Below, piece by piece: positions 5,488 to 34,564 of a DNA stretch of 64,000 nucleotides. Numbering within the stretch: position 1 is the first letter of the stretch; each line of letters begins with the position of its first letter. Below the pieces are notes generated by a model that did not search any database, was not told the origin of the DNA, and was given only the letters and a program-made list of their open reading frames with translations. The stretch is from Viridothelium virens (Eukaryota; Ascomycota; Dothideomycetes; Trypetheliales; Trypetheliaceae), in assembly GCA_010094025.1 (NCBI GenBank), contig ML991789.1, positions 358,930 through 422,929 on the forward strand, in the 5' to 3' direction. Position numbers and translations under genes: made by a program.

Positions 5488-6519
5488 ATGTCTAATCAAG
5501 CAGCCTGGATGAAGAAGGAAAAGGCGAACCTCGTGGTTGACACGGCCGAATTCCCCGTCCCAGAGTCGAATGAGCTCTTGGTCAAGAATGCCGTCATTGG
5601 TTTAAATCCAATCGAGGCCAAGATCCAAAAGCTCTCCCTCATCCCCATACCCTACCCAAACATCCTCGGCCTGTCATTTGCTGGCACGGTAGAAAAGGTC
5701 GGCTCCTCTGTTACCGCCTTCAAGCCTGGCGATCGCGTTGCGGTAGAACGATCTTCCGCTATGGGCATGAAACCAACCTCTGGCGCATACCAGAAGTACG
5801 TTATCGCTGACTCCCGGACGACCTCCAAACTTGAAGACAACACCACCTTCGAGGCCGGTGCAGCCACCATAGTCAATCTTGCTACCGCTGCCGTCGCTTT
5901 GGGCATCAGCTTGAAGCTGGACCGCCCGAACCCCACCGGTCCAAATCCAGCTAACAAGGCTAAAAAAGTCCTCATCTATGGTGGATCTTCCAGCGTCGGT
6001 GGCTTTGCCATTAACTTTGCCATCAGCGCTGGCTATACCGTCATCACGACCTCGTCCCCAGCCAACTCGGCGACCGTGAACTCTCTCCAGCCAGCCAGAG
6101 TAATTGACCACACGCAACCGGCTGAGACTATCGTCGCCGAACTGAAGGCGGCCGGGCCGTATGACGCTGTCTTTGATACCATTGGGTTGCCTACAGTCAC
6201 AACCATTCTCGGTCAGGTCCTGGCGGAGACGGGCGGTGAATATTACACCACGATCCCACCATTTGGGCCCCCAAATTTGCCCGCAAATGTGCAGCGACGT
6301 ATGGAGAGCTATCCGAGTATCATGGAGCGACCCGAATATGAGGAGTTTCGGGAGTGGTTTTATGGTTCGCTTGGTCAGTATTTGGGCACTGGACGAGCAG
6401 ACAAGCTATTGGCGCCAGAGAAGATCGAAAAAATTGCAGGTGGACTCGGGGGCCTCCAGGGTGCGCTTGATAAGTTGGACAAAGGCGTGAGTGGCAAAAA
6501 GTTGGTAGTAGAGTTGTGA
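5488..6519 (+). CDS. Zinc-independent MDR oxidoreductase / enoyl-reductase-like protein
   Basis: Single exon, 343 residues. It is a medium-chain dehydrogenase/reductase: GroES-like N-terminal half with GLSFAGTVEKVGSSV (about 61-75) and the PGDRVAV turn (80-86), then a Rossmann domain with VLIYGGSSSVGGFAINFA (about 161-178) for NAD(P)H. The catalytic-zinc ligands of true alcohol dehydrogenases (GHE motif) are absent, which fits the quinone-oxidoreductase / trans-enoyl-reductase branch common beside fungal metabolic clusters. Substrate unknown. Its neighbours are the SfnB-like and SfnG-like flavoenzymes and a second MDR gene, so it may process aldehydes or enones released by them, but that is inference. 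The ATG follows a TATA element and a CT-rich leader. Confidence 0.85.
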   Translation: MSNQAAWMKKEKANLVVDTAEFPVPESNELLVKNAVIGLNPIEAKIQKLSLIPIPYPNILGLSFAGTVEKVGSSVTAFKPGDRVAVERSSAMGMKPTSGAYQKYVIADSRTTSKLEDNTTFEAGAATIVNLATAAVALGISLKLDRPNPTGPNPANKAKKVLIYGGSSSVGGFAINFAISAGYTVITTSSPANSATVNSLQPARVIDHTQPAETIVAELKAAGPYDAVFDTIGLPTVTTILGQVLAETGGEYYTTIPPFGPPNLPANVQRRMESYPSIMERPEYEEFREWFYGSLGQYLGTGRADKLLAPEKIEKIAGGLGGLQGALDKLDKGVSGKKLVVEL

Positions 6520-7091
6520 TGCATCAGAACCATGTGGCAATAACCTCGAGCAATAAGAGTTGTTGACGTTTTATCAATTGTCCATTTTTGGCTTGATAGA
6601 GTCTTGCAGTCCTGAGGATGCTCCTGTTGGCGCTAAACCTAAGTGTGTCTCACGTCCGAGCGGTATTTGAACTGCTCCTGTTTCTACCTATTGGTAATTC
6701 TAGACCCCAAGCTTGAACGTACTGTAACATACTCGAGTGTACTAATACTTCAAAGGTAAGGCATCATAGGAGGCGGAAGGTAGTGGAAATCGCAAAAATG
6801 CATGACTACCGGCGAACCTGCTGTATAGACAGCAAGTGGCAGCTTAAGATACCAAGCCGAGCCGTTCTCCTATGCTCACGGTAATGACAAGAAGTAGCTT
6901 CGATGGCAAGTATAAGGCACCTTTAATCGCCTTCCACATCGCAGCACTTGCTCGTGGGCGACGACAGATTTCAGAATATTCATGCGATGTAAGTGTTACT
7001 CCGTACTAAAACGATGACCAAATCCTTTATTAAGTGAGCTGACTATAAATGGCGAGTATCCGAGGGGAAACTTGCCGAACGATAAGCAGCT
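6520..7091. other. Convergent intergenic region, no gene seen
   Basis: 570 bp between the stop codons of two convergent genes (MDR on +, acyl-CoA-dehydrogenase-like on -). It should contain both 3' ends. No coding signal was noticed. Confidence 0.6.
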
Positions 7092-8822
7092 TTAAGTATA
7101 CCATGTTATAGCTGGAATTTCTCCCAGCAAGGCGAAACGACCAAGTTCCTTATTCTTATAAGCCACAGGATCGTGAAGACTATGCGTTCGAACGTCTCGC
7201 CAAAACCTATCCAAGCCCACCTTGGTTGCAGTCGCTCTTGCTCCGGTAACTTCAAAGACGCCTGCTGTTACCCTCAGGGCTGTATCTGTCGCGACGACCT
7301 TGACGGAAGCTACCCATTCTGCTGCCTCACCACGCTCTTGAGGCGTTATGTCACGTTCCTCTGACCTGTTATTATACAAGTCTGCGATGACGATGCCAGC
7401 TCTATCAGCAAGAGCCTCGGCTGCGCGGAGATGCGCAAAAAAGTTACCGTAGCGCTCCAAGATGTAAAATTCATCGCTGGCAGAGTCTTTGTTATCACCT
7501 CCGAAGGGCCAGGCGCGAGTATTTGCTTTCGTATATTTGAGAGAGAAATCTAAAGCACCCAGAGCAATGCCGATATAGAAATTTGAGAAGACGAGTTGAA
7601 TGCTGAAGTGGAACCAATCGTCAGCGATTTTCGATGCAGACAGGCAAAGAGACTTACGTTGGAAGGAGGAGGCTAGCCCAGGGAGTATCCAAAAATTCAG
7701 CCAGGGGCTTCTTAAGCTTCGGGTCCCAACCTAAGGCGTCTTCCCAAGGTACGGCTACTCGATCGATCTTGACACTGCCCGATTCTGTCAGGCGGAGTCC
7801 CATGTTATTCCAGTTATGCTACAAAACACGTTAGAAGAGCAAGCTTGCAACGTTTCGCCGCATTTAATTCAGTTGGGCAGGATTCAGGGCATCCATCAAG
7901 AAGCATCTTAGCGTATCTCGACCAGTCGAACTTTTCATTTATCTATTCTGTTGACATGACTCTTCAGTCTGACCACCACTTAAGATCAAACCTGCAAGGA
8001 TTGTACGAATTCCGAGCTTTTGGCCGCAAATTCTCTGAAACTCCGTTGCCGCTCGCAGGTTACAAACCACACCGAGAGCTTGAGCTCAGCAAACCAATTT
8101 GCACAAACTTGGATGCTTGACTACAGGCGGGAAGGTGCTTCTTGGTGTTTTCTTGGTGTATTCTTGGAGGTCTGTGACGCTTGAGATGGACTCACCGCAA
8201 ATTGGATGCCACTTTGCTGAGTGGGACAAAAGGCAAAGATATGTGCATCGGATCCTTCCAATACCCCTTCCAAAACTGTTAGGTCAGATATAACACCTCC
8301 TGTATTGAAATTCTTGAAGCCATTGAAAACTATGTGTTCATTTTCACTGGTGATGTTCAGATCACTGTCCCTCGGATTTACAGCACCTCCAATGAAGTAA
8401 TTGTTCTTGATAATCAATTCCTGGAATCGGTCGCGTTGCTCATTTGTGCCGACTACATGCGCCGTCCAGGACCAAAGCAAATGATATCCTAATAACATCC
8501 CAAGTGAACCGTCGCCTTTCGCGACCTCGCGAATGACTTTGTATCCGACGTTCCAGGCTTGACCACCGCCGCCGAAAGCTTTGGGACCAAGGATCTTAGT
8601 AAGTCCCGACGATTTAAGGAGTGCAACTTCAGCTTCAGGGATCTTTTGCTCTCTATCACGGGTGCTCACGTCTTCAGCAAGGATTTGAGCAATGTTGGAA
8701 GCCCGCAAGATCCATTCCTCTTCAGTCTGCGGCAGTACTGAGCTCGCAAATACCTTGAAGTGATCATCATATACAGCTGGATCTGTGGCCTGGAGAGATG
8801 TGTCGATTGCGCTTGGAGACAT
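7092..8822 (-). CDS. Acyl-CoA-dehydrogenase-fold flavoprotein, DszC/SfnB-like
   Basis: Exons 8822..8196, 7818..7658 and 7602..7092 give 432 residues; donors GTGAGT and GTAAGT, phases 0 and 2. The start is the ATG reading MSPSAIDTSLQ. The frame is open 9 bases further upstream but only to a TTG. The protein has an acyl-CoA dehydrogenase layout: alpha-helical N-terminal domain (IPEAEVALLKSSGL), the middle region with GDGSLGMLLGYH (about 107-118) and FNGFKNFNTGG (about 167-177), and a helical C-terminal domain (VTAGVFEVTGARAT). Such length and motifs match the DszC/SfnB group, which includes FMNH2-dependent S-oxygenases and partners of dimethylsulfone metabolism rather than beta-oxidation enzymes. 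The SfnG-type monooxygenase 5 kb away supports an organosulfur role. No peroxisomal SKL-type tail is present. Confidence 0.85.
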
Positions 8823-11335
8823 CTTGTTCAACTTGATCGTTTCAATGCAAAAACCGAAAGAACCACAGGACGTTCAAGAAATTACCTAGCCCCAAATTTG
8901 GACGCTTTGCAGCTGTGAATCAAGGTCACAGTCTTAATAAACAGAATTGCGCGCCGTCAAAAGGCGCGATCACATCGAATGGCGTGATGCGGTCGGCGTT
9001 GATCTGGATGAGCAAGATTGCGTGATGCGGAGTATCGCTCGATACTGAGTGGCTCCAGGCTTCTTATGAGACGAAGATCAGCGCACCATCTTTAGGTGCA
9101 TTCTGAGAGAGCCCATGTGTATGGGACAACCCAAATACAACCAAGGTACTTGTCACAGCAGTCTGCTCGTTGGCTACGAGACCAACACCATTGTACGGCT
9201 CTCGCGTGATTCATGCCGCCCTTACCGAAAAGAAAAAGCTTCGCGAGCGTCCTTCGAGCTTCATCTGAGTTGGATCTACTGAATGCAGTCGAACAGGAGA
9301 GGCAGCGAGTAGATAAGAGAACGGCTGAAAACATACCATGGGTGGTAACAAGAAAACTTGGGTGGATTTATAAGGCTCAATATTTTGCTGATGACTTTTC
9401 GGATTAAACAGAGTTTAAAAGGGATATTTGGGACATTTCTGACCAATTCTCTCTCAACGTCATAACGGCCTGTTCTCCTCGACAGCGTGAAAGGATCTTC
9501 CAAGAGACGCCCGAAATTCGTGGAAATATGAAGAGGTCAAAATACTAGTCGCCTTAAATAATTGCGGAAGAGCATACATTTCTTATTACACTCCCAGGTA
9601 GGCATCGATTTGTTGATAGACAGTTGCCCGGACAACATGACAAACGCGAGATCGCTGCTATCTACTCCAGAGCTTAACCAGTGTTACAGTCTCTCCTACT
9701 TGTTTGAAGTATTGCTTACTTCGTCCTCTCAAAAAACGACCGGTATCTCCTATTGGCAATCCAAGCCTTAGTACGTCTTGAGACATCAAGTTGCCGACCC
9801 TATGATACCCCAGCATCCCCATCACGAAAGCAATGGCGTCTGCTGCCTCTTTGATCCCAGTTGAAGTGTTATCGATTCCGTCTGCAGATGCTAAATAGGA
9901 TGCAGCCACTAATGTAAAGACCATTTTCACCGTAAAGAATACCCCACTGTAAATAAGGTTACTAACTTGCTCAACATCGTATAGGTCTTTCGATTGGTGA
10001 TGCCCTTTGACGTACGGAGACGTGAATCCTATGAGAAAGAGAGCATCCCAAGCTACCCACACTGCGAACCGAGTCGGAGACATTTAATGTCAACACAAGA
10101 ATGAGATCGGAACAAGGCTCTAGAGGCTCTCGAAAAAAAGAACCACTGAAAACCCAAAAGCCGGGGCTGTTACTGTACGATACGAGATCGGATCCATGAC
10201 TCTCTTCCACACCGAATGTTTCAAGTGAGGATGGCCCCGAATTCTGCTTAGAAGAGACTGAATGCTGATAGGACTGTATTTGCAGAGTGGTTCCAAAAAT
10301 CGTTTCCCATCGTGTCGATATCACTACAACTTTCCCTGCAACGAAGAAAATGTTTCCAATAAAGATATCGGTAGTGGTCGAGTTGCACTGTTCCGTGAGT
10401 GATAGGGACGAGGTCGTCAGGGTCATCGCAAGAGCCCCAATCGCGAGAGCCTTCTATAGTTCGCAGTTGCTTCCGCATTCTCGAATGACTTTCGGCTACT
10501 CACTGGATTTCTGACCTGTTACTTGATGGTCCCTGGTACGAGAACTAATTCTGTCTCATCCAAAGTCCTCAAGCAAAAGACTGTAACGCTCTATTCTTTC
10601 TTGGCATTTTCTGGGTAATATTACTCTCCCTCGTCGACAGAGTGCGAAGATGTTTTGGCTCTGGTCCGGGAGGAATGAGACGAAGCGGACAAGAAGCACG
10701 GACTGTAGAGCCCAGGATATGGCCACTTCTCCGAGAGCAGATCTGTTCAGCGTAGGATCTCTAGGTTGTACAAGCAATTGACCTGGTCTTTCCGCGGTGC
10801 CTCGTCTACTATCATCGTCGTTGAGGCTCACATCGACCTGCATCAGTGGTATACTTTAGGCCTGCACCAAACCCACGGCTCTGACAGCATCCCTTTTCGA
10901 TAGCACCTCATCGAAGCTATGGACGTTCGATTCTGTGGTATATTGAGTTCTTGGGGTGCTAAACTCGGTCAATCGCGCTTAAATGTCGCGGCCTGAGAGC
11001 CCCTCATCACGCAATCAACCAAACTGTCGCCAGTGTCATGATCGTCGGGATTTTGGCGAATGAAGGCAGAGGATTATAAGGTCCCCCCGCGCAGGTCTAA
11101 TGACCTACAAAGATGGCTGTTGTATATTTCTGATAATTTTACGATTATCGGTAACATACAGCGATAACGTCCATATTTTCGATACAGTATTCGAGCCGCC
11201 TTCGTCATCATCGAGCAAAGCGCCAAAGCTCTAAAGAGACTTGATGATGTTATTCTCATTCCTCTTGTTCATCATAATTGTTATTAGAGTTGTCCAAGCA
11301 GCTGGATCCTAGCTGCACGTTCCTCTCATTTAGCC
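8823..11335. other. Intergenic region with one doubtful gene
   Basis: 2.5 kb between the SfnB-like gene (-) and the second MDR gene (+). Apart from the possible membrane-protein gene at about 9658..10560 (listed separately) I see only short frames. The first 200 bp is rich in ATGCGG/GCGTGATG words and contains a near match to a sulfur-regulator site (see findings). Confidence 0.45.
9658..10560 (-). CDS. Doubtful multi-exon membrane protein
   Basis: On the minus strand two overlapping frames read like protein but cannot be joined with certainty. The 3' part (10083..9658) contains hydrophobic runs such as VWVAWDALFLIGFTSPYV and VFFTVKMVFTLVAASYLAS followed by DAIAFVMGMLGY. The 5' part (about 10460..10100) has TTDIFIGNIFFVAGKVVVIS. 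A plausible acceptor is TTCGCAG just inside the 3' part, near 10065. The frame before its ATG has stops, so an intron or a decayed gene is needed. I recognise no family. Its position between the sulfur-metabolism candidates would suit a transporter or membrane partner, but that is speculation. It could equally be non-coding. Confidence 0.25.
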
Positions 11336-12750
11336 ATGGACATCTTGACTGAGGAAGAAAGTCGTTTGGTCATGGAGAGCATGGCCCCAAAATTTACAAA
11401 GCGCGAGCTCGAGGGGCATGAACCTACCCGGCCTGGGTCGCCAGGACAAGATGTCCTGCTCATTCATGGACCTGGACAACAATATAGGTTGACCTCACAG
11501 CAAGAGATACCTTCTCTGAATTCTCCATCCGAAATACTAGTCAAAGTACGTGTGTATGCAGCTGGAATTACAATGTTGCTAACTGAATTTAGGTCATAGC
11601 TATCGGGCTGAATCCTATCGACTGGAAGGGACCGTGAGTCTTGAGCACGGTCGATCATTATCACTGACTAATATTGGTGTCAAGGGACTTCAATTTCGGA
11701 CTGCCATCATTACCCTGGATCAATGGTCGAGACATGGCTGGCGTTGTCGTGAAGGCGCATAAGCGCTTGCGTAGGATACGAGTTGGCGATGTTGTACATA
11801 CTCCCACTCTGAATTTTCTATTGTATAAGTACCTAACATTAACCCAGGTCCTTAGCCCGTCTACAGACTATCGTGATATTCGCAAAGCGGCTTTTCAAGA
11901 ATTTTCCATAAGTTCTGAGCATAATGCGGCTCGAGTCCCGAGAGATATGCCGATTCAAAGCAGTGCGGTTATGGGCGTTGCCTACGTTACTGCTGCTATT
12001 ACTCTCGGTATCTGCTTTGGACTGGATTTTTCGACTATCGGTAGCTATTTTCGCGCTCCGAATCTACTTCATCTTCTCCAGGAAGTCGATCCGAATGCTC
12101 TAGCTACAGATGTTCGGGACGAGTGTCTCAATGGAATCGAAGAACTCGATCGAGTTAAAGCTGGAGACTGGATTGCCATTTGGGGGGCTTCATCTGCTAC
12201 AGGAATGATTGCCCTACAATTGGCGAAACTTTGTGGTTTACGCGTGATTGGCGTAGCCGACGTCGCTCGCCACGGGGATAAGCTCCTTCAAGCTGGAGCG
12301 GATCTTCTAGTCGATCGTCACGATACCGACCGTGCTGTAGCTATCATACGAGGGGTCACCAAAGGCTCCCTTAGATTTGGACTCGATACCGTTGGCAAAG
12401 ACACTGCAACACGGTTACAGGAATGTCTATCAACAACAGCCGAGGACGGTCGAAAATCGCATCTCGCGGGACTTACTGGCGTCCCAAAAGTTCCGACTGA
12501 CAATGTGGTCCTTCACAAAGTACCAATCAAAACATTTCATGATGTTCCTCAGGTTGGCGAATGTCTGATGGTCTTGCTCGAGAAGCTCTTAGTGGCAAGA
12601 AAATTACTGCCCCCGGAAGTCGAGACTGCCATGGGAGGCTTGAATGGAATCAATGAGGCGCTAGATCTGCTGCGAAAGGGAACGATCTCAGGGAAGCGCG
12701 TTGTTGTTCCGTTGGATACCTCTATTGAACGTGCAACTATTACGATCTGA
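11336..12750 (+). CDS. Second MDR oxidoreductase (trans-enoyl-reductase-like), 4 exons
   Basis: Exons 11336..11545, 11593..11633, 11685..11790 and 11848..12750 give 419 residues. The three introns are 47, 51 and 57 bp. The last is in frame, and I removed it because splicing restores the family sequence RVGDVLSPSTDYRD and an AACCCAG acceptor follows a CTAAC branch site. The GroES-like half has IGLNPIDWKGP (about 74-84) and GRDMAGVVVKA (about 99-109). The NAD(P)-binding motif IWGASSATGMIALQLA lies near residues 230-245. No zinc ligands are seen. A roughly 30-residue stretch before the Rossmann fold (FSTIGSYFRAPNLLHLL) is longer than in the neighbouring MDR at 5488. It lies on the same strand as and 1.2 kb before the SfnG-like gene. 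Substrate unknown. Confidence 0.82.
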
Positions 12751-13987
12751 GCAAGAAATCGTGCTGATCGCTACACCTTGCCTATTCTTTGATGTTCATA
12801 TCGGCAGTGTCAGGGCAATGGGGGGCTCGTGGATATGAAATACAGAAATACCAATCCTACTGATACTTCGTGATACCAGGTGGCCAATACTTTGACTTCC
12901 GCAAAGCCAGGGGCCTCTCGCCAAAAGGGCTGAAAATCGCAGCGGCGAACTTGATAAGATGCCTGGCGAAAATTATTGGCAGAGCTACCTAATTTCCTAT
13001 TTGTTCTCTTTGCAAATAGAGAGGCCTCGGTCGAACCTGAAGCCATAGTCTGTTATAGGCGAATATTTCAGCCATCGTATCTTCCCTTCACAGGGAGCCC
13101 TATCGACGTTTCTTGCTGTCACTTCTTGTGGAGATCTACGATTGCTTGGTTCATTGTCTGAAATAAGTTTCAATACGCCTGCTCTTTAAGAGCACGTAAT
13201 TTTACAGTCAGTCTGTTTATTCTTGGCCCGCCCGATGCAAGATGACAAAAATATCCTGGTAAGCTCCAGCCCTCCGCAACTCTTCGACGAACGCACAGCC
13301 TGACTTAGATAGGCATTTGGTGATTTACTGGACGATCAAGGCCAAAGTGATTGACAATTAAGACGACGCTATCCCTTAAACGTCTAGCAGCTCGATGTTA
13401 GGCTTTTGATCACGCCATTGCTCACCAAGAAGATGCTATGTTCACGTATGCGACCAAACAGGCTGTCGGCATAGTACAGCAACTTTCTGCGGTAGATGTC
13501 TCTCACTTCCTTCAGTGGAGTAATCTAGGCCTGATGAAATGATCTCTTCAAGGATTGGTAGCGAATGAGGACCACAGAAGATCTCAGGGTTCAGAAGCTT
13601 TCCCTCGTCAAGCAGGGCACGCTGCATCGTCGTGGGCATCGGACAGATTAACTTCCTGTATGTCGGCAATCCGCCGATCGGTCAAGATGAACCTGTGTCG
13701 TTACCCCCACCTTACCACCTGGCTCATGCTATGACGAAGTATTGCAAATCCTGGCGAAAAGCTTGCTTCTAAGTGTACCAGCCACACAAGCGTCGACGGC
13801 TGGAGGTCTCCCTAATGTCGTGGATATAGATATAGTAAGTGATGCGCTAGTTGCGCTAATGGGCATGTCAGGTAGGAAAACCATGGCACGGTATGCCGAC
13901 GAAAGCTATCTTTGTCGAGCTTCCCATATTTATTTTTCTTAATCAATCTACTCTGCCTCTCTTGCACCAACAAGTACCTCTGTCCAG
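12751..13987. other. Intergenic, no certain gene
   Basis: 1.2 kb before the SfnG-like gene. A minus-strand frame at 13669..13442 contains the protein-like stretch GKLLNPEIFCGPHSLPILEE, but it has no partner exons that I can find. It may be a fragment or chance. Confidence 0.4.
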
Positions 13988-15480
13988 ATGTCCACAATGG
14001 CCACAAGTAGTACCAATGGTATTCACGGAAGAATCGTCAATGGAGGGTTGGACAATGGATTGGATCACGCTAATCAACTGAACTCAGACCCAAATCGCAT
14101 CAAATTTGCGTAAGACTTATATGCATCTTCCCATTCCTAGAGTCATTGAATTGATGTCGTGACCTAGATATTGGGTTCCGAACGTGTCCGGTGGTCTTGT
14201 TATCTCCAAAATCCCACAACAGACTGATTGGACTCTTGACGCCAACATCAGATATGCTCAGATTGCTGAGAAGGTTGGCTTCGAATACGCATTGTCACAG
14301 ATTCGATTCATGGCCGGCTACGGTGCTGTGAGCGAGCTCTAATCTCATGAAGCAGAGTAGTTACTGACAAGGCCCCGCTTCATAGGACCATCAACATGAG
14401 TCCGTCTCAATCTCGCAAGCCTTGCTCCACTTTACCTCCAAACTCAACGTAATTGCTGCACTTCTTCCTGGCCCCTGGAATCCAGCAGTAGCAGCTAAGC
14501 AGATTGCGAGCATTGATCAATACACGAATGGGTGAGCTAGATTCCGAGGATATTGGTTCAATGGTGCAAGCCTGACATGCTTCAGTCGGATTTCTGTGAA
14601 TATCGTTTCCGGATGGTTCAAGGCAGAGTTCACTAGCATTGGCCAATGGTGGCTTGATCATGCCGAACGATACCGGCGAAGCAATGAGTTCATCCGATGT
14701 CTGAAGGGCATCTGGACACAGGAGAAGTTCAATTTTAGTGGCGATTTCTATCAGGTAAATTATGCAGTCGCTTAAGAGGTTGTCTATACAGCGCTAACGA
14801 ACACGAAAAAGTTTCACGACTATCCTCTCCAGCCGAAGCCCATTTCGAGACCTGGACGCCCACATCCCGAGATCTTTCAAGGAGGCAATTCCATTGACGC
14901 GCGCGAAAACGCTGCTACCGTCTCCGACTATTACTTCATGAATGGGAATACGCTCGAGGGGTTTCAGACGCAGATTAAAGACGTTAAAAATCGCGCCGAG
15001 CGAGAAGGCCGTTTAGCTGATGTGAAGTTTGCCGTGAATGGCTTCGTCATTTGTCGTGAAACCGAAGGAGAAGCGGTGCAGGTGTTGCAGGAGATTCAGG
15101 GCAAGGCCAACAAAGAGGCGGTTGAGGCTTTTGGGGACGCAGTCAAGAATGCTGGCGCTAGTACGAGCAACAAGACGGGAATGTGGGCGAACTCCAAATT
15201 TGAGGATCTCGTTCAGTATAACGACGGATTTAGAACAAAACTCATTGGAACGAAGGAGCAAATTGCGGATCGTATTTTGTTGTTGAAGAGTCTGGGGGTG
15301 AATATCTTGTTGACTGCTTTTCTTCATTACGAAGTGGAAGTAGAGCAATTCGGAAGTGAGGTATTGCCACTGGTCAGGAAGCTTGAGGCCGAGGGTCGCG
15401 GGAAGGATGCTGAGCTTGAGATCAGGTTGACTGGCGATGTGTACCGCGAGAAGAAGACAGGAGAAGAGTCGGCCACATGA
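13988..15480 (+). CDS. SfnG-type FMNH2-dependent dimethylsulfone monooxygenase (5 exons)
   Basis: Exons 13988..14109, 14168..14327, 14386..14531, 14586..14754 and 14812..15480 give 421 residues with matching phases (2,0,2,0). It is a bacterial-luciferase-like TIM barrel. The conserved string of the SfnG branch is present almost entirely: YWVPNVSGGLVISKI, EYALSQIRFMAGYGADHQHE, ALLPGPWNPAVAAKQ, VNIVSGWFKAEF, HPEIFQGGNS and DLVQYNDGF. Such enzymes use reduced FMN from a separate reductase to cleave dimethylsulfone to methanesulfinate, feeding sulfur assimilation. About 40 residues at the N-terminus, encoded by exon 1 and rich in Ser/Asn/Gly, are additional to the bacterial length of about 365. 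Location is probably cytosolic. The SfnB/DszC-like gene nearby is the expected partner. No flavin reductase was recognised in the window. Confidence 0.92.
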
Positions 15481-16976
15481 ATTGCTCGCTAGTATTCTCA
15501 TTGTACGAGAGAAACCGCAGTAAGATCTTCTCTGCAACCAGTTGGTGCTCCTGTCCAGCCAGATCTTCAGCTTTGCCGGTTCTGAGCTTGCCACATTGAT
15601 ATCCGCTTGGAATGCAATGCATGCAAAGCTGTTCACGATTCCTCCTGGAAGGGATGCGACCAAGTTTGTCACTTGGACAATTTGAGGGTAAAGGTATCAG
15701 CGAGAGCCACTATGAAGGCAATGTTTGGCTCGAAGATAGTAGATATATGCATTCACTGATCGAGAAGTCCATCGTTGTGACGAGGTCGCAACAAGGCATT
15801 CCGGCCGAGAAAGCTATCATCCCGCTATGCCCAGTGCTGCGAACTGTTTGTTCAAAACTCTGGTAGTTAGGGTATATTGTGCACTTTCGCTTTTGGAGGC
15901 CTAGTGCGGTGAATGTAGGGGCAGTTCCTGGACCTGACGATGGTGAAACGCCTAGCGATAAGAAGTACTGTGAATCTGGGAGGACGGAAGGCCAGGCGGC
16001 TTGGGTAGTATCAGTGACGAGGCAGTGGAAGATTTCCCTACTTTAATAGATAATGCGACTGATGCAGTTCGATGCGCCGATATCTCTAAGCGTTGTTTGA
16101 TAAGGAGCAGCGCAGCCGGATGAGGGAATGGCGGAATTCGTGAGGAGTACGGAGTACGCATGATACGATATCCTAGAGTACCCCATTTGGTCCTTTCCAG
16201 ATATGCGCTCTTCCAATTCACCTTTTTGCATACCTCTTCGCCCGTTGCTGATCCTTGGGGATCCTAAAGAACAATTATTACTCTTTAGCATTGTGCGAAA
16301 CTACCTGCCAGGTGGTAGGTGCCTTTACCTAGGGCTGTCACGTGTTCTCATTTCCCACTGATCGCCTCAGGGGTTGCCAAGACGGCGAAATTCCGCAATA
16401 ATCTACCACACCGTCTTCAAGATAACCCTAACCGTGCATTGCATGAAATCTCTGGATACCAGTCAGTACCAATCAGAACAGCACGAGAGCCGCTTTCCAT
16501 GGATATACCACCAATGTGACGTGCTAATTAGGGCCTTCCCCTTCTACAGTATAACTCCGTAAACAGGTAGCCCTTCCTAATACAGTAGTGCCGCGTCGCT
16601 TCGAGAAAGGAATATGTTTGGAGACCACTTAGCCTCCTAACACACTTTGTCCTATTTATGAGCACAGTCCAGTCATACACACAGTCGCCATTCTGTCAAG
16701 TGTCGCTAAGCCAAGCGCCTCGCGAGCCTGGTGTTGCGTGAGATATAGTGCCAAGAGCTCCCTCAAGCCGCCTCCAGCGGTCCTTCGTAAAACTCGGTCT
16801 CGAACAGGCCGGAAATGCCTCTCAGTTCAAGAACCTGAAAACTGCTTTATAAGGTCTGTGGTGTACCTTCTGCTCCTTCGTTCGGGTACTCTTTACTTTG
16901 ACATCAGTACAGTTTACTGCAACCTTTTCGTTTCCAGTCTGTCTTTACCAATATTCTTTATTGCCATTCTTTAACT
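15481..16976. other. Intergenic, no gene seen
   Basis: 1.5 kb between the SfnG-like gene and the LPMO gene. Short frames only. The last 130 bp is the LPMO leader, which is CT-rich before the ATG. Confidence 0.55.
16846..16853 (+). promoter_or_regulatory. TATA-like element of the LPMO gene
   Basis: TTTATAAG lies about 125 bp upstream of the LPMO ATG, with a pyrimidine-rich segment between. Assigned by sequence and spacing only. Confidence 0.4.
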
Positions 16977-18161
16977 ATGAAGTCTTACGTTTTTTCAACG
17001 CTTGCAGTCGCCGCAAGCATTGCTCAGGCGCATACTACTCTCTATGCCCTGTGGGTAAATGATGTGGATCAAGGACTTGGAAATACCGGAACCGGTTACA
17101 TCAGGAGCCCCCCCAACAACAATCCTGTCAAGGACCTGACCTCGCCCGATATGGCCTGCAACGTCAACAATGTACCTGCACCTAAGTATGTCAGTGTCAA
17201 GCCCGGTGATAACGTCACTTTCGAGTGGCACCACAATTCGCGTGATGCCAGCGACGACATCATTGCTTCATCTCATAAAGGACCGGTTCAAGTTTACATG
17301 GCCCCCATGACCTCTTCGCAAGGCTCCGGTCCTATATGGCAAAAGATTGCTGAACATGGCTATGACGCAACATCTAAGAGATGGGCTGTAGACGACTTGA
17401 TCTCCAATAAAGGCAAACACAGTATCATCGTTCCTGATGTCGCGGACGGTAACTATTTCCTGAGGCCGGAGATCATTGCCTTGCATGAAGCAGACACCTT
17501 ACACGACCAAAATTCCGCTCGTGGAGCTCAATTTTACTTTGAGTGTGCACAGCTGAAGATTTCAGGAGGTTCTGGCTCCGCTATGCCCGCTGGCGTGTCG
17601 TTCCCTGGCGCATACAAGGACAGCGACCCGGGTGTTCATTTCAATCTTTATGGTAGTTTTTCCACTTACCCTGTTCCCGGACCGACTGTCTGGTCTGTTG
17701 GTGCGGTCGCGACGTCTACCGTCCTATCACAGGCTTCTACAGCCGCGCCTTCTTCTGCTGTCGCCCCGTCAGGTACACCAGTTTCGTCCTCTGCTACCAC
17801 TTCATCTTCATCTCTGGTGGAAGCTGCTCCGACAGCGGCCTCCTCGATCAGCTCCACGTCCAGTGATGTCGCTCCCGCTTCTGCTAGTACGTTTGCCAAT
17901 AGCATAACCGCGTCTGTTTCATCGACAACCACCACTACTGTTCCCACTACCCTCGCTACTAGCGTGAAACCATCTTCTGCTGCTACTACTGCAGGAGCTC
18001 CTGGTGAGGATGACGACGGAGAGTGTCCCGAGGACGGTGATTTCAATCCCACTACGTCGGAGGCAAGTCCTGCCATGCCCTATTCAGCCACGACTGCAGC
18101 CCAAAGCGCAGCATCGGCTGCTGATGGGGACGATGGGGATGATGGTGACTGTGAGCCTTAA
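16977..18161 (+). CDS. AA9 lytic polysaccharide monooxygenase with Ser/Thr linker and acidic tail
   Basis: Single exon, 394 residues. Residues 1-18 are a signal peptide cleaved before His19, which would be the N-terminal copper-brace histidine. The second copper histidine is His100 in [11 protein letters not shown], after the family motif [12 protein letters not shown], and the axial tyrosine is Tyr187 in QFYFEC. All active-site residues are therefore present. The catalytic domain ends near residue 235. About 110 residues of Ser/Thr/Ala/Val low complexity follow, a probable O-glycosylated linker. The C-terminus is very acidic ([12 protein letters not shown] and [12 protein letters not shown]) and has three cysteines; it is neither a CBM1 nor a GPI signal. 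The enzyme oxidatively cleaves cellulose or related glucans outside the cell. The cellobiose dehydrogenase at 32198 is a likely electron donor. Confidence 0.93.
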
Positions 18162-29425: not shown

Positions 29426-32197
29426 TCAAAGATACCAACACAGCAATACGTGATGAGAATAGCAGTTGACATTCATTGCTGTTTAATAGGGGACTGGAGG
29501 AAGGGGAATTGGAAGACTGTGACTTTCTGCTTGGGTGTACCCACCTAAATGCTTGTGTCATTGAAGAGCTGGCTTCGCAAATCCAGGAGACAAGGTTCAT
29601 AGGCCTATAGACTATGTGGTGATAATGTGCTAGAGTTGCTAGAGTAGAAAACGACAAGGTGGATCGAATGACGTGCTGCCCCTTTAATTGTGCGTGAAAC
29701 TTTTGATCTTACGTGTCATCGTTCCTTTTCCCTTTTCACTCGGCATTATTAGGATCACACCGACGTCTCACTTTCCTGGATATCTCTTTCGAAAACACAC
29801 GCACGTCTGAGGTGAATTCGCTAGGACGTCGGAACAGATGCAGAGTCAGACTGATCAGGGCCAGAGCAAGGTACTGTGAAGAGTCTCTATAGTCCTATGC
29901 TGAAGTTCTACGGATTTACTTCATCACATGTCCCACTTGCGCCAGTAGGAAAGTCGTCGTTATCGAGGGCCGCTTCCTCATGGTTGGTGTAACACGAATC
30001 TTTCAAATCGCCATGATATCGAGGTGATTTCGAGGCCTTCTTTTGAAAAGTTGGCTACCTTGGAAATATCTCTCAGAGCCGTCCTTTCCCATGATTCTGG
30101 TTCTTCAATCTAATGTCGATTTCAGCGATCGTTTGGATCTCTCATTGTGCGGGCTTAGAGGAGCCACGAGAGCTCTGCCTCTCACTGCAAGTGACGGATT
30201 TGTGTGTTCGTCGCTCACTCATTCTTTTTACTAATGGGTCATGTATGAAGAGAAGTACTGCCAGCCTTGAACGGGTAACGTAAGTCCGTCGCGGCCTTTG
30301 GGGCTATTGTCAATTCGGTAAGAAAAAATCTTGCTCTGGTTCCGGGTATGGATGTTTATAATGGTTAAAGCGTCAGCGCCGGGCTAAAAGCCCTTGGAGC
30401 TTAACACCAGCTAGCGGCAATTGAGCTGCAGAGTCCAGTCTATTGAGGAGATCCACGTGCAAGCCGGCAGTCAGACTGGTAACCGGGGTGGGTCGATTTC
30501 ATGGCATAATTGTTCTAGCACCCTGCAAGACCGCATCGGCCATCGAGTATGACATTCCATTTCTTTGGGCAATCCTAAGCAAGATAGAGGCCCTTCGTCC
30601 ATTGGGCTGAGAGATCTACAGGAGTATCACATCTTGAGACCCCATACAGTCAATGTTTGGGCACAAGAGAGGTACTTGAGGCTTGACTGGATAAGAATCG
30701 TGACGGGACAGAGTGCCCGTCATGCCCTGATGTAGCCTAATTATCACCATGTTACAGGTCTGAGTAAGAATTCCGTTAAGAGCAACACTGGCTAACAGTG
30801 TTTACCTCCGTTAATGAGTATATCCTCGGGACCAGTCTGGAAAAAGAAGAGCAGGTGCGGAGATACTTACAGGCGCCACAGCCGACGCGAGCAATCCGGA
30901 ATCCGGCACACGGCGCACTCTTGTGTATGAATATCAATAGCGTTCTCGGATTTCTGGAACTGATGATCTGACGCTTTTGGGCGCAACCGCGGCGCGTGCA
31001 AACCTATAATTACTGTCGTTGCGGGTAGAACTGGCTCAGATAGCGTAGCAGCTTGATAGAATGAAGAGCAGTTTAGCCGGATAGTAAATTGAATTACTTA
31101 CTAGGTAGACGACGAGGTAGTTTTCTTTTGACTGGTTCAAGTAATGCCGCTAATGCGAGGTCATCCTCATGACCGGCGGAACGATGCTACAGCGCTATTG
31201 CAGGAAAAGCTACCTCGCGGTTGAAAGTCGCAAAGGATAATGAGTATCGTATTGTTGCGAGGATGAGTCTATGGGGCATTGCGGCTGAAGACACGCGTTT
31301 CACGAGGGCGTATGCCGATGTGGCTGACGAAGAAAGCTCTGTCTCAAACAGGTCGCGGCGTATTGATGCTCCTGCTTCTTGACTGCTTTTTGATGGGTCA
31401 TTTTGCATATACTGGAGGACGCAAACCAGGATATCGATTGTTTATCTGGTAAGCGAAAGCTTGATTGTGCGGTTTCGTGCAAGCGATTCGGCTTCAACCG
31501 GCGGAAAAACTGGGGACGACCAGGGTGTGTACTAGGTACCTAGCTGGAGCCTTCTTCCCTTCTAATCTATTTCACACCCACCCGCCCGGCCTTTGGGGCC
31601 TTAATGTTATTGCCATCTCTTCTCATAGGTCCGATGCTGCCTCGACACTCAAAAGTTCATTTCGCCAGACTTGGCGGCAAAATCACTGAACCCTCGAAGT
31701 GTCTATGTGACCCTGCCATATGCGTTCTTTTCAACTGATCTCTCGGGCCCGCCTGCAGGCAATATTCGTCCAGTTATTGAAACAAGAAGGTAGTACAGGA
31801 TGTCCCCACGTCCCTCCAATGAAGCAGGGTCCTGTACCTATGGAGACACAACCGCCGGCCCGCTTCGTCCAACCATAGTCCTTCAATGTGGAGGGAGATT
31901 CATAGCCTCTTCGTGAGGCGCAAGTGCATCTTGTGTTGATCCATGCGTCTAGACCAAAACAATTCCTTTCATCTGCTGGTATGGGCCAGGCGTCAGCACT
32001 CTGCATGTTTACTAGGCAGGAATTGCATATCACGGTCTGGTGACTTTCTCCTCCCTTTTTCCCTGCCCCACGCAATTTGCTATCTTCTTCCTATTTATTA
32101 GTCCTTCGTTCCTCAATTTTTCTTCAATAGCAGAAGTCTTGGCGTCCTGTCTAGTCATTCTTTTGGTCGTGCTGAGCACCCTTTGTCAACTTCCAAG
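29426..32197. other. Long intergenic region, no gene seen
   Basis: 2.8 kb before the cellobiose dehydrogenase. The few ORFs (for example 31187..31408 -) lack motifs and splice partners. The last 150 bp, rich in CT and with a CTATTTATTA element at 32091-32100, is probably the CDH promoter and leader. Confidence 0.5.
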
Positions 32198-34564
32198 ATG
32201 AAGTTAGCCAATACACTTCTCAATGTTTCCCTTCTTGTGGGCCTCTGGGCCACCAGTGCCTATGCCCAAGCTGCCATTGACAGCTTCATCGACCCTAGCT
32301 CTGGCATTCCCTTTTCTAGAGCCTCTGTAGACTCGTCCGAGACTGCTGGAGGATTTCAATTTGGTGTGGCATTACCAAATGGAACCGACTCTCAAGCCGA
32401 ATATCTCGGATACTTGGTAGGCGCCCGAACCTCTGGCGCCGGATGGACTGGTATCTCTCATGCGGGCCCTATGACATCCTCTCTTTTACTGCTAGCCTGG
32501 GTCGATGGACAGCAGATTCAGACTTCATTTCGATACGCCTCGGGCTATGTTGCGCCAGATATCTACACTGGAAATGCGACACTCACCCAGATTGCCCACA
32601 CCATCAACGATACCCATTTCACTCTCACATACCGATGCCAGTGGTGCTTGGCTTGGAATCAAGGCGGTACTGCAGGTTCCCAGCTTCCCGTAACTGGTCA
32701 AGCCTTAGTCCTCGGCTGGGCTCAATCCGATACCAATCCTTCTCCGGTTACTGATTCTGATGCCACCATCATTCAGCATGACAGCATGGGTGAATACGGT
32801 CTACCCGTTGCCGGTGCTCAGCTGTCTAATTACTCTTCGTACATCTCCAAAATACCCACGGCTTCGCCGACAACAAGTCCTACTTCACCAACTTCGACCA
32901 CTACCGCAACTGCTACAGCGACTGCATGCGCAGCCGGTTCCTTTCAAACGGCACCAAGTACGACATACGACTACATCATTGTCGGAGCTGGCGCTGGTGG
33001 CATTCCTCTTGCTGACAGACTCTCGGAAGCTGGGCACAGCGTGCTCCTAATTGAGAAGGGTCCTCCATCCTCTCATCGTTGGGGTGGCACTTTGAGGCCT
33101 GATTGGCTCAACAGTACTAACCTCACCCGTTTTGATGTCCCTGGTTTGGACAATGAAATTTGGAAGGATTCTGCCGGCATCGCTTGCCCCGACGTCGGTG
33201 TGATGGCTGGGTGTGTCCTTGGCGGAGGTGTTGCGATCAACTCCGGTCTCTGGTGGTATGCACCAGATATTGATTGGAACTACAATTTCCCTACGGGATG
33301 GCAAGCTACGGACATGAAACCCAACGTTGAAAAAGTCTTTTCTCGAATCCCGTGGAACGACAATCCTTCTATGGATGGCGTACTTCATATGCCGGAGGGG
33401 CTTGACATCGTTGGTGGTGCTCTTGGTGCTGCAGGATGGAAGAACGTCGAGGCTAATCAGGTGCCGAATGAGAAAACCATGACCTATAGCCGTAGCATCT
33501 GGATGTACTCAAATGGCGAGCGAGGTGGTCCAATGGCCACCTACCTTGTCACTGCCAATGCCCGCAAGAACTTCAAACTCATTATGAACACTGCCGTTAA
33601 CAGGGTCATTAGGAATGGAAGCCATATTACTGGTGTCGAGGTTGAAAACTTCCTCAACGGTGGCTATTGTGGAACCATTAATGTCACTGCCAATACGGGC
33701 CGTGTCATTCTCTCTGCAGGTACATATGGAAGCCCCAAGATTCTATTTCGGAGCGGTATCGGGCCCGCGGACCAGCTGGCCATTGTCAATGCTAGCTCTG
33801 ACGGTCCAAAGATGATCAACAGCAAGCAGTGGATCAATTTACCGGTGGGCGAAAACCTTGGTGACCACACAGACACCGACATCCAAATTACCCACCCGAA
33901 TGTTACCTTCTACGACTACTATGCTGCATACAATACCCCAATACAGTCCGACGCGCAGAATTACATCCAACATCGTAGTGGAATGCTTGCTCAGTCCGCT
34001 CCTAACATTCAGCCTATCTTCTGGGATACAGTCGTCGGCGCGGACAAGGTCACTCGCCAGCTTCAATACACCGCTCGTGTGGAGGGAGATACGAACAAAT
34101 CTATGACTATTTCACAATATCTCGGACGTGGTGCTGTTTCACGCGGTCGTCTGACTATCACACCAAGTCTCGACATGACGCCTTCAACTCTTCCTTACCT
34201 CCAGAATGCTGACGACTTAGCGGCCGTCATCACCGGTCTCGAGAGAGTTGTTAAGGCACTTCAGACTGACCCAAACATCACCATTAGCGTTCCATCCACC
34301 AACCAAACCATCAGTGAATATGTCAATGCGGATCCTATCACCACGAGTCGCACGGCCAATCACTGGGTGGGTACCAACAAGATGGGCACAGATAGCGGTC
34401 TTACGGGCGGTACTTCCGTTGTCGATACCAACACTAAGGTTTATGGAACCGATAATCTCTACGTTGTTGACGCGTCAATTTTCCCCTTCATCGGATCTAC
34501 AAATCCTAGCGCTCTCATCGTCGCTGTTGCGGAGCGTGCTTCGTCGCTTCTGCTGGCTTCCTAA
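32198..34564 (+). CDS. Cellobiose dehydrogenase (AA8 cytochrome + AA3_1 flavodehydrogenase)
   Basis: Single exon, 788 residues from the ATG reading MKLANTLLN. Signal peptide of about 23 residues ending AYAQ. The cytochrome domain covers about 25-215, with heme ligands Met92 (SHAGPMTSS) and His194 (IIQHDSMG) in the family positions. A Ser/Thr linker (about 220-245) leads to the GMC flavodehydrogenase: FAD motif YDYIIVGAGAGG near 257, catalytic His722 in TANHWVG and Asn769 in IGSTNPSAL. No CBM1 follows. The enzyme oxidises cellobiose outside the cell and passes electrons through the heme domain to AA9 LPMOs, one of which is encoded at 16977. All catalytic residues are present, so it should be functional. 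Confidence 0.95.
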   Translation: MKLANTLLNVSLLVGLWATSAYAQAAIDSFIDPSSGIPFSRASVDSSETAGGFQFGVALPNGTDSQAEYLGYLVGARTSGAGWTGISHAGPMTSSLLLLAWVDGQQIQTSFRYASGYVAPDIYTGNATLTQIAHTINDTHFTLTYRCQWCLAWNQGGTAGSQLPVTGQALVLGWAQSDTNPSPVTDSDATIIQHDSMGEYGLPVAGAQLSNYSSYISKIPTASPTTSPTSPTSTTTATATATACAAGSFQTAPSTTYDYIIVGAGAGGIPLADRLSEAGHSVLLIEKGPPSSHRWGGTLRPDWLNSTNLTRFDVPGLDNEIWKDSAGIACPDVGVMAGCVLGGGVAINSGLWWYAPDIDWNYNFPTGWQATDMKPNVEKVFSRIPWNDNPSMDGVLHMPEGLDIVGGALGAAGWKNVEANQVPNEKTMTYSRSIWMYSNGERGGPMATYLVTANARKNFKLIMNTAVNRVIRNGSHITGVEVENFLNGGYCGTINVTANTGRVILSAGTYGSPKILFRSGIGPADQLAIVNASSDGPKMINSKQWINLPVGENLGDHTDTDIQITHPNVTFYDYYAAYNTPIQSDAQNYIQHRSGMLAQSAPNIQPIFWDTVVGADKVTRQLQYTARVEGDTNKSMTISQYLGRGAVSRGRLTITPSLDMTPSTLPYLQNADDLAAVITGLERVVKALQTDPNITISVPSTNQTISEYVNADPITTSRTANHWVGTNKMGTDSGLTGGTSVVDTNTKVYGTDNLYVVDASIFPFIGSTNPSALIVAVAERASSLLLAS

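Follow-up and report, generated by a model that had tools for sequence, protein, structure and literature searches.

Background

Routes by which cells obtain sulfur from dimethyl compounds have been described in bacteria. In Acinetobacter, group D flavin monooxygenases, which display the acyl-CoA dehydrogenase (ACAD) fold, convert dimethyl sulfide to dimethyl sulfoxide and dimethylsulfone, an SfnG-type enzyme termed 'MsuD' takes dimethylsulfone on to methanesulfinate, and a single flavin reductase feeds all of them (PMC13352529). SfnG is presumed to release formaldehyde (PMC8234197), and a region of Gordonia encoding a luciferase-like monooxygenase (LLM) oxidoreductase, SfnG and SfnB has been linked to the use of dibenzothiophene (PMC9861168, PMC11852219). 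As for fungi, a 2018 review described their family of monooxygenases dependent on reduced flavin mononucleotide (FMNH2) as yet to be characterized genetically or biochemically, and the role of a fungal FMN reductase in sulfur assimilation as yet to be demonstrated (PMC5857272); later papers report that such monooxygenase genes are regulated in yeasts (PMC11502921, PMC13170222). Here we analyze a stretch of 64,000 nucleotides (hereafter the window) from the ascomycete Viridothelium virens (assembly GCA_010094025.1, contig ML991789.1, positions 358,930 to 422,929), in which a gene for SfnG lies close to a gene for an ACAD-fold flavin monooxygenase of a type that many actinobacteria keep beside their own sfnG.

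At a probability of roughly 0.6, we favor a reading in which these two genes constitute an organosulfur-scavenging module of bacterial origin, combining SfnG with a partner that makes the sulfone for it, placed under CYS-3/MetR control and exclusive of two neighboring genes for MDR-family oxidoreductases. An initial annotation, made from the DNA letters alone, had proposed a fungal organosulfur-scavenging neighborhood at this place, and the functional direction of that idea is likely to be right.

Identification of the fungal SfnG and its ACAD-fold partner

Translations and gene models recover four genes within positions 5488-15480, in the order MDR1 (+), ACAD-fold gene (-), MDR2 (+) and SfnG (+), which reproduces the alternation of MDR genes with flavoenzyme genes described in the initial annotation. 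The two flavoenzyme genes are as follows.

13988 to 15480, plus strand: SfnG, by family an FMNH2-dependent dimethylsulfone monooxygenase; five exons, 421 amino acids (aa); introns at 14110-14167, 14328-14385, 14532-14585 and 14755-14811.
7092 to 8822, minus strand: ACAD-fold (group D) flavin monooxygenase of the SfnG-linked type; exons 8822-8196, 7818-7658 and 7602-7092; 432 aa.

The SfnG model is the one taken among four open models, as having GT..AG at every intron. The first intron of the ACAD-fold gene (7819-8195, minus strand) measures 377 bp, and the other introns modeled here measure 47-58 bp.

The fungal SfnG scores 574.9 bits against the NCBIfam equivalog model TIGR04021, whose cut-off is 382.95, and thereby belongs to this family; the next model, that of RutA, yields 132 bits, far under its own cut-off. 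Its closest solved relative is a dimethylsulfone monooxygenase (8t0u, E 2e-145), and the DszA-type structure 5tlc is matched at E 4.8e-7 only. In a comparison with 101 bacterial SfnG rows, some of them closely related, the fungal protein keeps all 63 invariant columns and all 108 columns that are near-invariant (at least 95%). To judge from these columns, full constraint seems to act on the gene, whose product has gained ~37 residues at its N-terminus. These results uphold the assignment to SfnG, and the grouping with a different luciferase-like family, which the initial annotation had named among the outcomes that would refute its idea, was looked for and did not appear. Beside the Pseudomonas SfnG, with which it shares the family score and the invariant columns, the fungal gene differs in its four introns, its N-terminal extension, a five-residue insert before PEIFQGG and its eukaryotic host; it also has no MsuE- or MsuD-type gene beside it, as judged from searches with PF01613 and PF00296, PF03358 being outside these searches. 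On inspection by eye, neither flavoenzyme ends in a peroxisomal targeting signal at its C-terminus.

The ACAD-fold protein finds its nearest solved relative in DszC (4doy, E 1.7e-70), and it also resembles TdsC and MsuC (6u76, E 1.6e-59). Against the SfnB model TIGR04022 it scores 223.9 bits, below the cut-off of 430.9, and against the DszC model NF043015 it scores 275.6 bits, below the cut-off of 850. In a tree of 66 rows, from which we left out fragments shorter than 330 aa, identical proteins, everything that scored below 190 bits and the two rows L123_2735 and L121_3, it falls into a clade of 35 rows with 100/100 support, the other members of which are actinobacterial; the MsuC and DszC/TdsC rows fall outside this clade. 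At 38 diagnostic columns, which were picked as characteristic of the linked clade, the fungal partner has the residue of that clade in 24 and that of MsuC in two, and its identity to the linked actinobacterial proteins reaches 56%. We accordingly rejected SfnB and DszC as identities of the partner, since it stays under both cut-offs and in another clade of the tree, and likewise MsuC, since it lies outside the clade of the solved 6u76 and carries so few of the MsuC residues. The partner hence shares with MsuC and DszC/TdsC the class of ACAD-fold S-oxygenases, but belongs to a separate clade with other diagnostic residues. Where the initial annotation had called it DszC/SfnB-type, the designation as a sulfur-related flavoenzyme holds and membership of either family does not; it is a representative of a third clade, kept beside sfnG by many actinobacteria.

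This clade is marked by a signature of W117, W119, G146, R151, E221 and W234 (fungal numbering), which is present in the fungal protein and in every one of the 35 linked rows; these represent 34 genes, since L121_3 is a truncated copy of the gene in L087. Position 146 is instead Asn in all six MsuC rows, in both DszC/TdsC rows and in 28 of 37 SfnB-like rows; the last include L123_2735, a long branch within the linked clade in another ACAD tree, which was counted as SfnB-like on account of its 123 bits. The fungal partner departs from the clade at 30 of its 155 near-invariant columns and is therefore a diverged member. A second actinobacterial ACAD group (L110, L111, L112, L113 and L129), 34-37% identical to the fungal protein, is also found beside sfnG; it forms a separate clade, yet has Gly at position 146.

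Linkage of the two genes in bacteria and fungi

Scanning bacterial and archaeal contigs with the fungal SfnG yielded 58 loci, several of which end early at contig ends. In 18 of these the linked ACAD is encoded in the same locus as sfnG, with 47-55% identity to the fungal partner; in two of the 18 (L034 and L038) it lies ~4 kb away and does not adjoin sfnG. Besides these, three of the 58 loci have an ACAD relative of 31-34% identity and one has a copy in pieces. The broken copy belongs to a Pseudonocardia metagenome-assembled genome, where it occupies positions 9530-10068 of locus L048 beside sfnG. A locus of Paenibacillus glycanilyticus (L069) has two sfnG copies (at 2806 and 8001) with an ACAD-fold gene between them that is 34% identical to the fungal one.

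We further searched 296 genomes drawn evenly from the class of a Pseudonocardia genome, this center genome having been picked for its possession of the pair. An ACAD of at least 51% identity is encoded in 19 of them, and in 17 of the 19 sfnG lies within 1.5 kb of it (16 of 18 when the chosen center genome is left out). As for the two exceptions, one (G170) has no SfnG at E 1e-80 and the other (G268) has it on another contig, near a contig end. Nine more genomes contain only an ACAD of 35-38% identity, which lies beside sfnG in five. A search at E 1e-60 through 398 genomes from Pseudomonadota, the phylum to which Glaciimonas belongs, gave no ACAD above 42% identity, although 21 of these genomes have SfnG. 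The ACAD has 340 matches among plasmid records (E 1e-30), of which the best 50 display 38-42% identity. A run of successive genes in Nocardioides (L039) combines the linked ACAD, an SfnB-like gene, SfnG, an SfnB equivalog, an SsuD-like gene and two reductase-like genes; in this locus only SfnG and one SfnB gene exceed their cut-offs.

The fungal arrangement resembles that of actinobacteria such as Pseudonocardia, Thermobifida and Nocardioides, in which two close genes encode SfnG and a partner 47-56% identical to the fungal one, from a single clade with 100/100 support. It differs from the actinobacterial pair in that the fungal genes lie on opposite strands, have introns, form no operon and are more loosely spaced (MDR2 separates them and the distance is 5.2 kb, against a distance within ~1.5 kb in 17 of 19 bacterial genomes), and in that the fungal SfnG is placed nearer to proteobacteria. 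In the 30.7 Mb V. virens genome we found one SfnG gene and one gene of the DszC/SfnB class, both counts being lower bounds based on the best-scoring candidates; other matches to the SfnB model reach at most 57 bits, and the top-scoring one looks like an ordinary acyl-CoA dehydrogenase. The starts of the two genes are 5,166 bp apart, a proximity expected under uniform placement in ~3 of 10,000 cases, a figure that is descriptive since the pair had been picked in the initial annotation. The window represents the last 64 kb of a contig of 422,929 bases, and a domain scan of its open reading frames (ORFs) identified an AA9 protein, a cellobiose dehydrogenase, squalene epoxidase and HAT1; because these eukaryotic genes share the window, a stray bacterial contig is excluded.

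A second fungal case may be found in Exophiala spinifera FM, for which Table 1 of a 2025 paper gives an SfnG (KIW15895 = g9837) and a DszC-like protein (KIW15893 = 9836) (PMC11778650). We take these genes to be adjacent from their consecutive numbering. The case resembles ours in that one fungus has both genes with consecutive numbers, and differs in that the authors treat dibenzothiophene and in that the accessions skip one number. Elsewhere in the open-licence literature searched we did not find the pair described as a unit, and the available excerpts of a paper on Aspergillus flavus and dimethyl sulfoxide and of one on Aspergillus fumigatus MetR contain nothing on a fungal SfnG pair.

A shared upstream site and possible sulfur control

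The consensus of the Neurospora sulfur regulator CYS-3 is ATBRCGCCATC, and CYS-3 binds and regulates a gene annotated as 'dibenzothiophene desulfurization enzyme' and also regulates mox-7 (PMC8550094). The first ten bases of the consensus, ATBRCGCCAT, match the window at two places, 8979-8988 (minus) and 13409-13418 (plus), one upstream of each flavoenzyme gene, against 0.73 expected per window. Both matches read the same 11-mer, ATCACGCCATT:

8978 to 8988, minus strand: putative CYS-3-like site ATCACGCCATT in the intergenic stretch that the ACAD-fold gene shares with the divergent MDR2, 156 bp ahead of the ACAD start.
13409 to 13419, plus strand: putative CYS-3-like site ATCACGCCATT, ~570 bp upstream of the SfnG start.

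The site on the ACAD side is 2.3 kb from the MDR2 start. The 11-mer, which was read off the two sites themselves, occurs 17 times in the genome against four times for the reversed pattern. Two or more matches to ATBRCGCCAT also arise in 14 of 100 shuffles of the window, and the unusual part is their positions: the chance of finding the core in both upstream regions is 1.3e-4 for 1-kb promoters and 4.0e-4 for whole intergenic stretches, values that are partly post hoc and thereby weakened, since this form was tried after other forms of the motif had failed. The core is absent from the loci of the other two luciferase-family genes identified in the same genome (L001 and L002), which counts against its being a general mark of such genes. 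A further form, ATGRYRYCAT, was uninformative when one mismatch was allowed (38 sites against 26 expected).

The shared core lends moderate support to joint sulfur control of the two genes. In other fungi, PF00296 genes, which need not be SfnG, are induced under sulfur limitation or, in the case of DszA-type ones, repressed by methionine (PMC11502921, PMC13170222, PMC4536894).

Evolutionary origin

Phylogenetic trees were built for both proteins with a single fungal row each and with fragments under 330 aa and identical proteins dropped; that of SfnG comprised a hand-thinned set of 78 rows, taken from 100 bacterial ones, the solved SfnG and the fungal row. In it the actinobacterial rows are set apart from the fungus in a clade of their own (100/99), and the fungus groups with proteobacteria (94/92), a set supported at 99/98 in a smaller sample. 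Forcing the fungal SfnG to join the actinobacteria costs 14.0 log units and is not rejected by the approximately unbiased test (p-AU 0.088). In the ACAD tree, on the other hand, the fungal row lies inside the linked actinobacterial clade, and forcing the 34 bacterial rows into a clade of their own costs 5.1 and is likewise not rejected (p-AU 0.341). By these two tests, each of the fungal genes may be sister to its counterparts in the actinobacterial pair, and a nested origin is demonstrated for neither. Both fungal proteins are on long branches. The row nearest to the fungal SfnG by path (L017) comes from an assembly of Burkholderia multivorans, in which it is encoded on a short scaffold.

The likeliest interpretation of the trees is that both genes are bacterial in origin and old. 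An old transfer had been proposed in the initial annotation from the introns, and the long branches and the lack of a recent bacterial donor in either tree point the same way. Under this interpretation a single joint transfer is possible, as are separate donors.

A proposed pathway and its alternatives

On the favored reading, the ACAD-fold partner would be a reduced-flavin S-oxygenase of the same pathway as SfnG, most likely converting dimethyl sulfide or dimethyl sulfoxide to the sulfone in the manner of the Acinetobacter Dms1-3 enzymes. SfnG, to go by its family, would then use FMNH2 to cut one C-S bond of dimethylsulfone, yielding methanesulfinate and formaldehyde. The FMNH2 would come in trans from a flavin reductase whose gene lies in another part of the genome. 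The remark in the initial annotation that no flavin reductase lies nearby stands as far as PF01613 is concerned, which has no match in the window and four on other contigs; PF03358 (FMN_red, MsuE-type) was not searched. Methanesulfinate may be oxidized to methanesulfonate by free reduced flavin, and oxidation of methanesulfinate without MsuC is cited in PMC13352529. At least three PF00296 genes were found in the genome, SfnG and two of the NtaA/DmoA type that are over the cut-off of that family, and there is no MsuD/SsuD among them; another enzyme would therefore have to finish the route. We propose a TauD-type dioxygenase for the desulfonation of methanesulfonate, a family with 20 matched pieces in the genome that group into 14 places. 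The two flavoenzyme genes would probably be switched on together by CYS-3/MetR, as their shared site suggests, and the MDR genes would have no part in the module. The NtaA/DmoA-type genes are on contigs C28 and C43 (L001 and L002), and the gene of L001 can be read as an open frame through 483 aa.

Several points weigh against this reading. SfnG is not accompanied by a partner of at least 51% identity in 20 of the 38 actinobacterial genomes that have it, and can therefore occur without this partner. The literature and sequence searches identified no enzyme of known activity in the linked ACAD clade. The likeness to Acinetobacter Dms1-3 is that oxygenases of the ACAD fold use reduced flavin to produce the sulfone on which an SfnG-type enzyme acts; however, three group D proteins scored out of five found in Acinetobacter belong to the SfnB family and not to the linked clade, and the likeness is therefore one of fold and place in the pathway rather than of close kinship. 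As regards regulation, the late choice of motif form has been mentioned above, the full consensus ATBRCGCCATC is absent from the window, exact ATGRYRYCAT has no match in it, and RCGCCATC has eight sites in the window with none in the cluster. Single mutants of the tested FMNH2-dependent monooxygenase genes of Candida albicans had no growth defect on sulfonates (PMC13170222). Finally, the placement of SfnG near proteobacteria but of the ACAD near actinobacteria does not favor a transfer in one piece, though such a transfer is not rejected by the trees.

The alternative that survives best retains the module but places the ACAD-fold enzyme after SfnG, as an oxidizer of methanesulfinate to methanesulfonate in the role of MsuC. 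MsuC is itself an ACAD-fold S-oxygenase, and the E-value of 1.6e-59 between the two is in keeping with such a role; nevertheless, the fungal protein lies outside the MsuC clade, and the contrast of two against 24 among the 38 diagnostic columns speaks for the linked clade. A gene of the MsuC clade is found ~2.6-2.7 kb from sfnG in two loci (L167 and L168), and in the Nocardioides run, where none was seen, the linked ACAD could fill that place; on the other side, the kcat of MsuC is low, and Acinetobacter without the enzyme displayed no significant growth defect (PMC13352529). We regard this role as rather unlikely.

It is improbable that the pair instead desulfurizes larger sulfides or sulfones, such as dibenzothiophene-like compounds or natural thioethers, by a fungal route resembling the 4S pathway. 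In its favor, no solved structure is closer to the partner than DszC, and E. spinifera FM uses dibenzothiophene, with both genes listed there as Dsz candidates (PMC11778650). Against it, the enzyme that would cleave the C-S bond is SfnG and not DszA, in line with the poor match to 5tlc, and the presence of Trp three and five residues after a conserved His in all 35 linked rows suggests a pocket that may be narrower than that of DszC. Least probable is a small secondary-metabolite or detoxification cluster of all four genes with SfnG-like chemistry on a special substrate, for although the MDR genes are interleaved with those for the flavoenzymes, their products are similar to LovC, a polyketide enoyl reductase, and one shared site sits between the ACAD gene and the divergent MDR2, a scan of MDR2 and 19 further ORFs of the window showed no core biosynthetic enzyme, and no MDR relative was detected in the 58 bacterial sfnG loci.

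Implications

With the favored reading of a two-gene scavenging module, the locus is a fungal instance of a pathway known from bacteria, containing an enzyme subfamily without an assigned activity; for bacteria, too, the literature searched gave none for the linked ACAD clade. It provides a concrete fungal gene pair with an actinobacterial counterpart, a candidate site for a sulfur regulator and a clear gap at the MsuD/SsuD step, and suggests that some fungi share the bacterial way of stripping sulfur from small compounds such as dimethylsulfone. It would also carry over to fungi a soil dimethyl-sulfur route described in bacteria in 2026 (PMC13352529). A more far-reaching proposal, which we make tentatively and hold at somewhat less than even odds, is that this has been a lasting fungal two-gene module since an ancient bacterial transfer, in which an ACAD-fold subfamily feeds dimethylsulfone to SfnG under CYS-3/MetR control and a dioxygenase replaces MsuD/SsuD. 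If this is true, some soil fungi are direct consumers of the dimethyl sulfur pool, including volatile dimethyl sulfide and the sulfoxide.

MDR proteins and other genes of the window

The remaining two genes of the locus encode the MDR proteins:

5488 to 6519, plus strand: MDR1, a LovC-like MDR oxidoreductase of 343 aa encoded in a single exon; probably a bystander.
11336 to 12750, plus strand: MDR2, MDR oxidoreductase, four exons and 420 aa in the chosen model; probably a bystander.

Nine models of MDR2 are open, and its exon borders are less certain. MDR1 contains the Pfam domain ADH_N and has the LovC enoyl reductase (3b6z, E 5.6e-23) as its best solved relative; MDR2 contains ADH_zinc_N and ADH_N, and LovC is again the best solved match (E 3.5e-15). 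The initial annotation had suggested that these reductases could treat the carbonyl products released by the flavoenzymes. This role finds no support: at E 1e-5 none of the 58 bacterial sfnG loci has a relative of MDR1 or MDR2, both proteins resemble LovC, and a LovC-like reductase would not be an obvious sink for the formaldehyde that SfnG is presumed to release. MDR genes are common in fungi, and the presence of two of them nearby is for this reason weak evidence of a role. Both are probably bystanders.

Among the other ORFs scanned are a cutinase-like piece, PrpF and a ZIP transporter. The AA9 (GH61-type) lytic polysaccharide monooxygenase, which has a Ser/Thr-rich tail, is encoded at 16902-18161 on the plus strand, ~1.4 kb past the SfnG end, and ~14 kb from its ORF lies the cellobiose dehydrogenase-like ORF (32102-34564, plus strand), which combines cytochrome and GMC domains in 820 aa without a stop.

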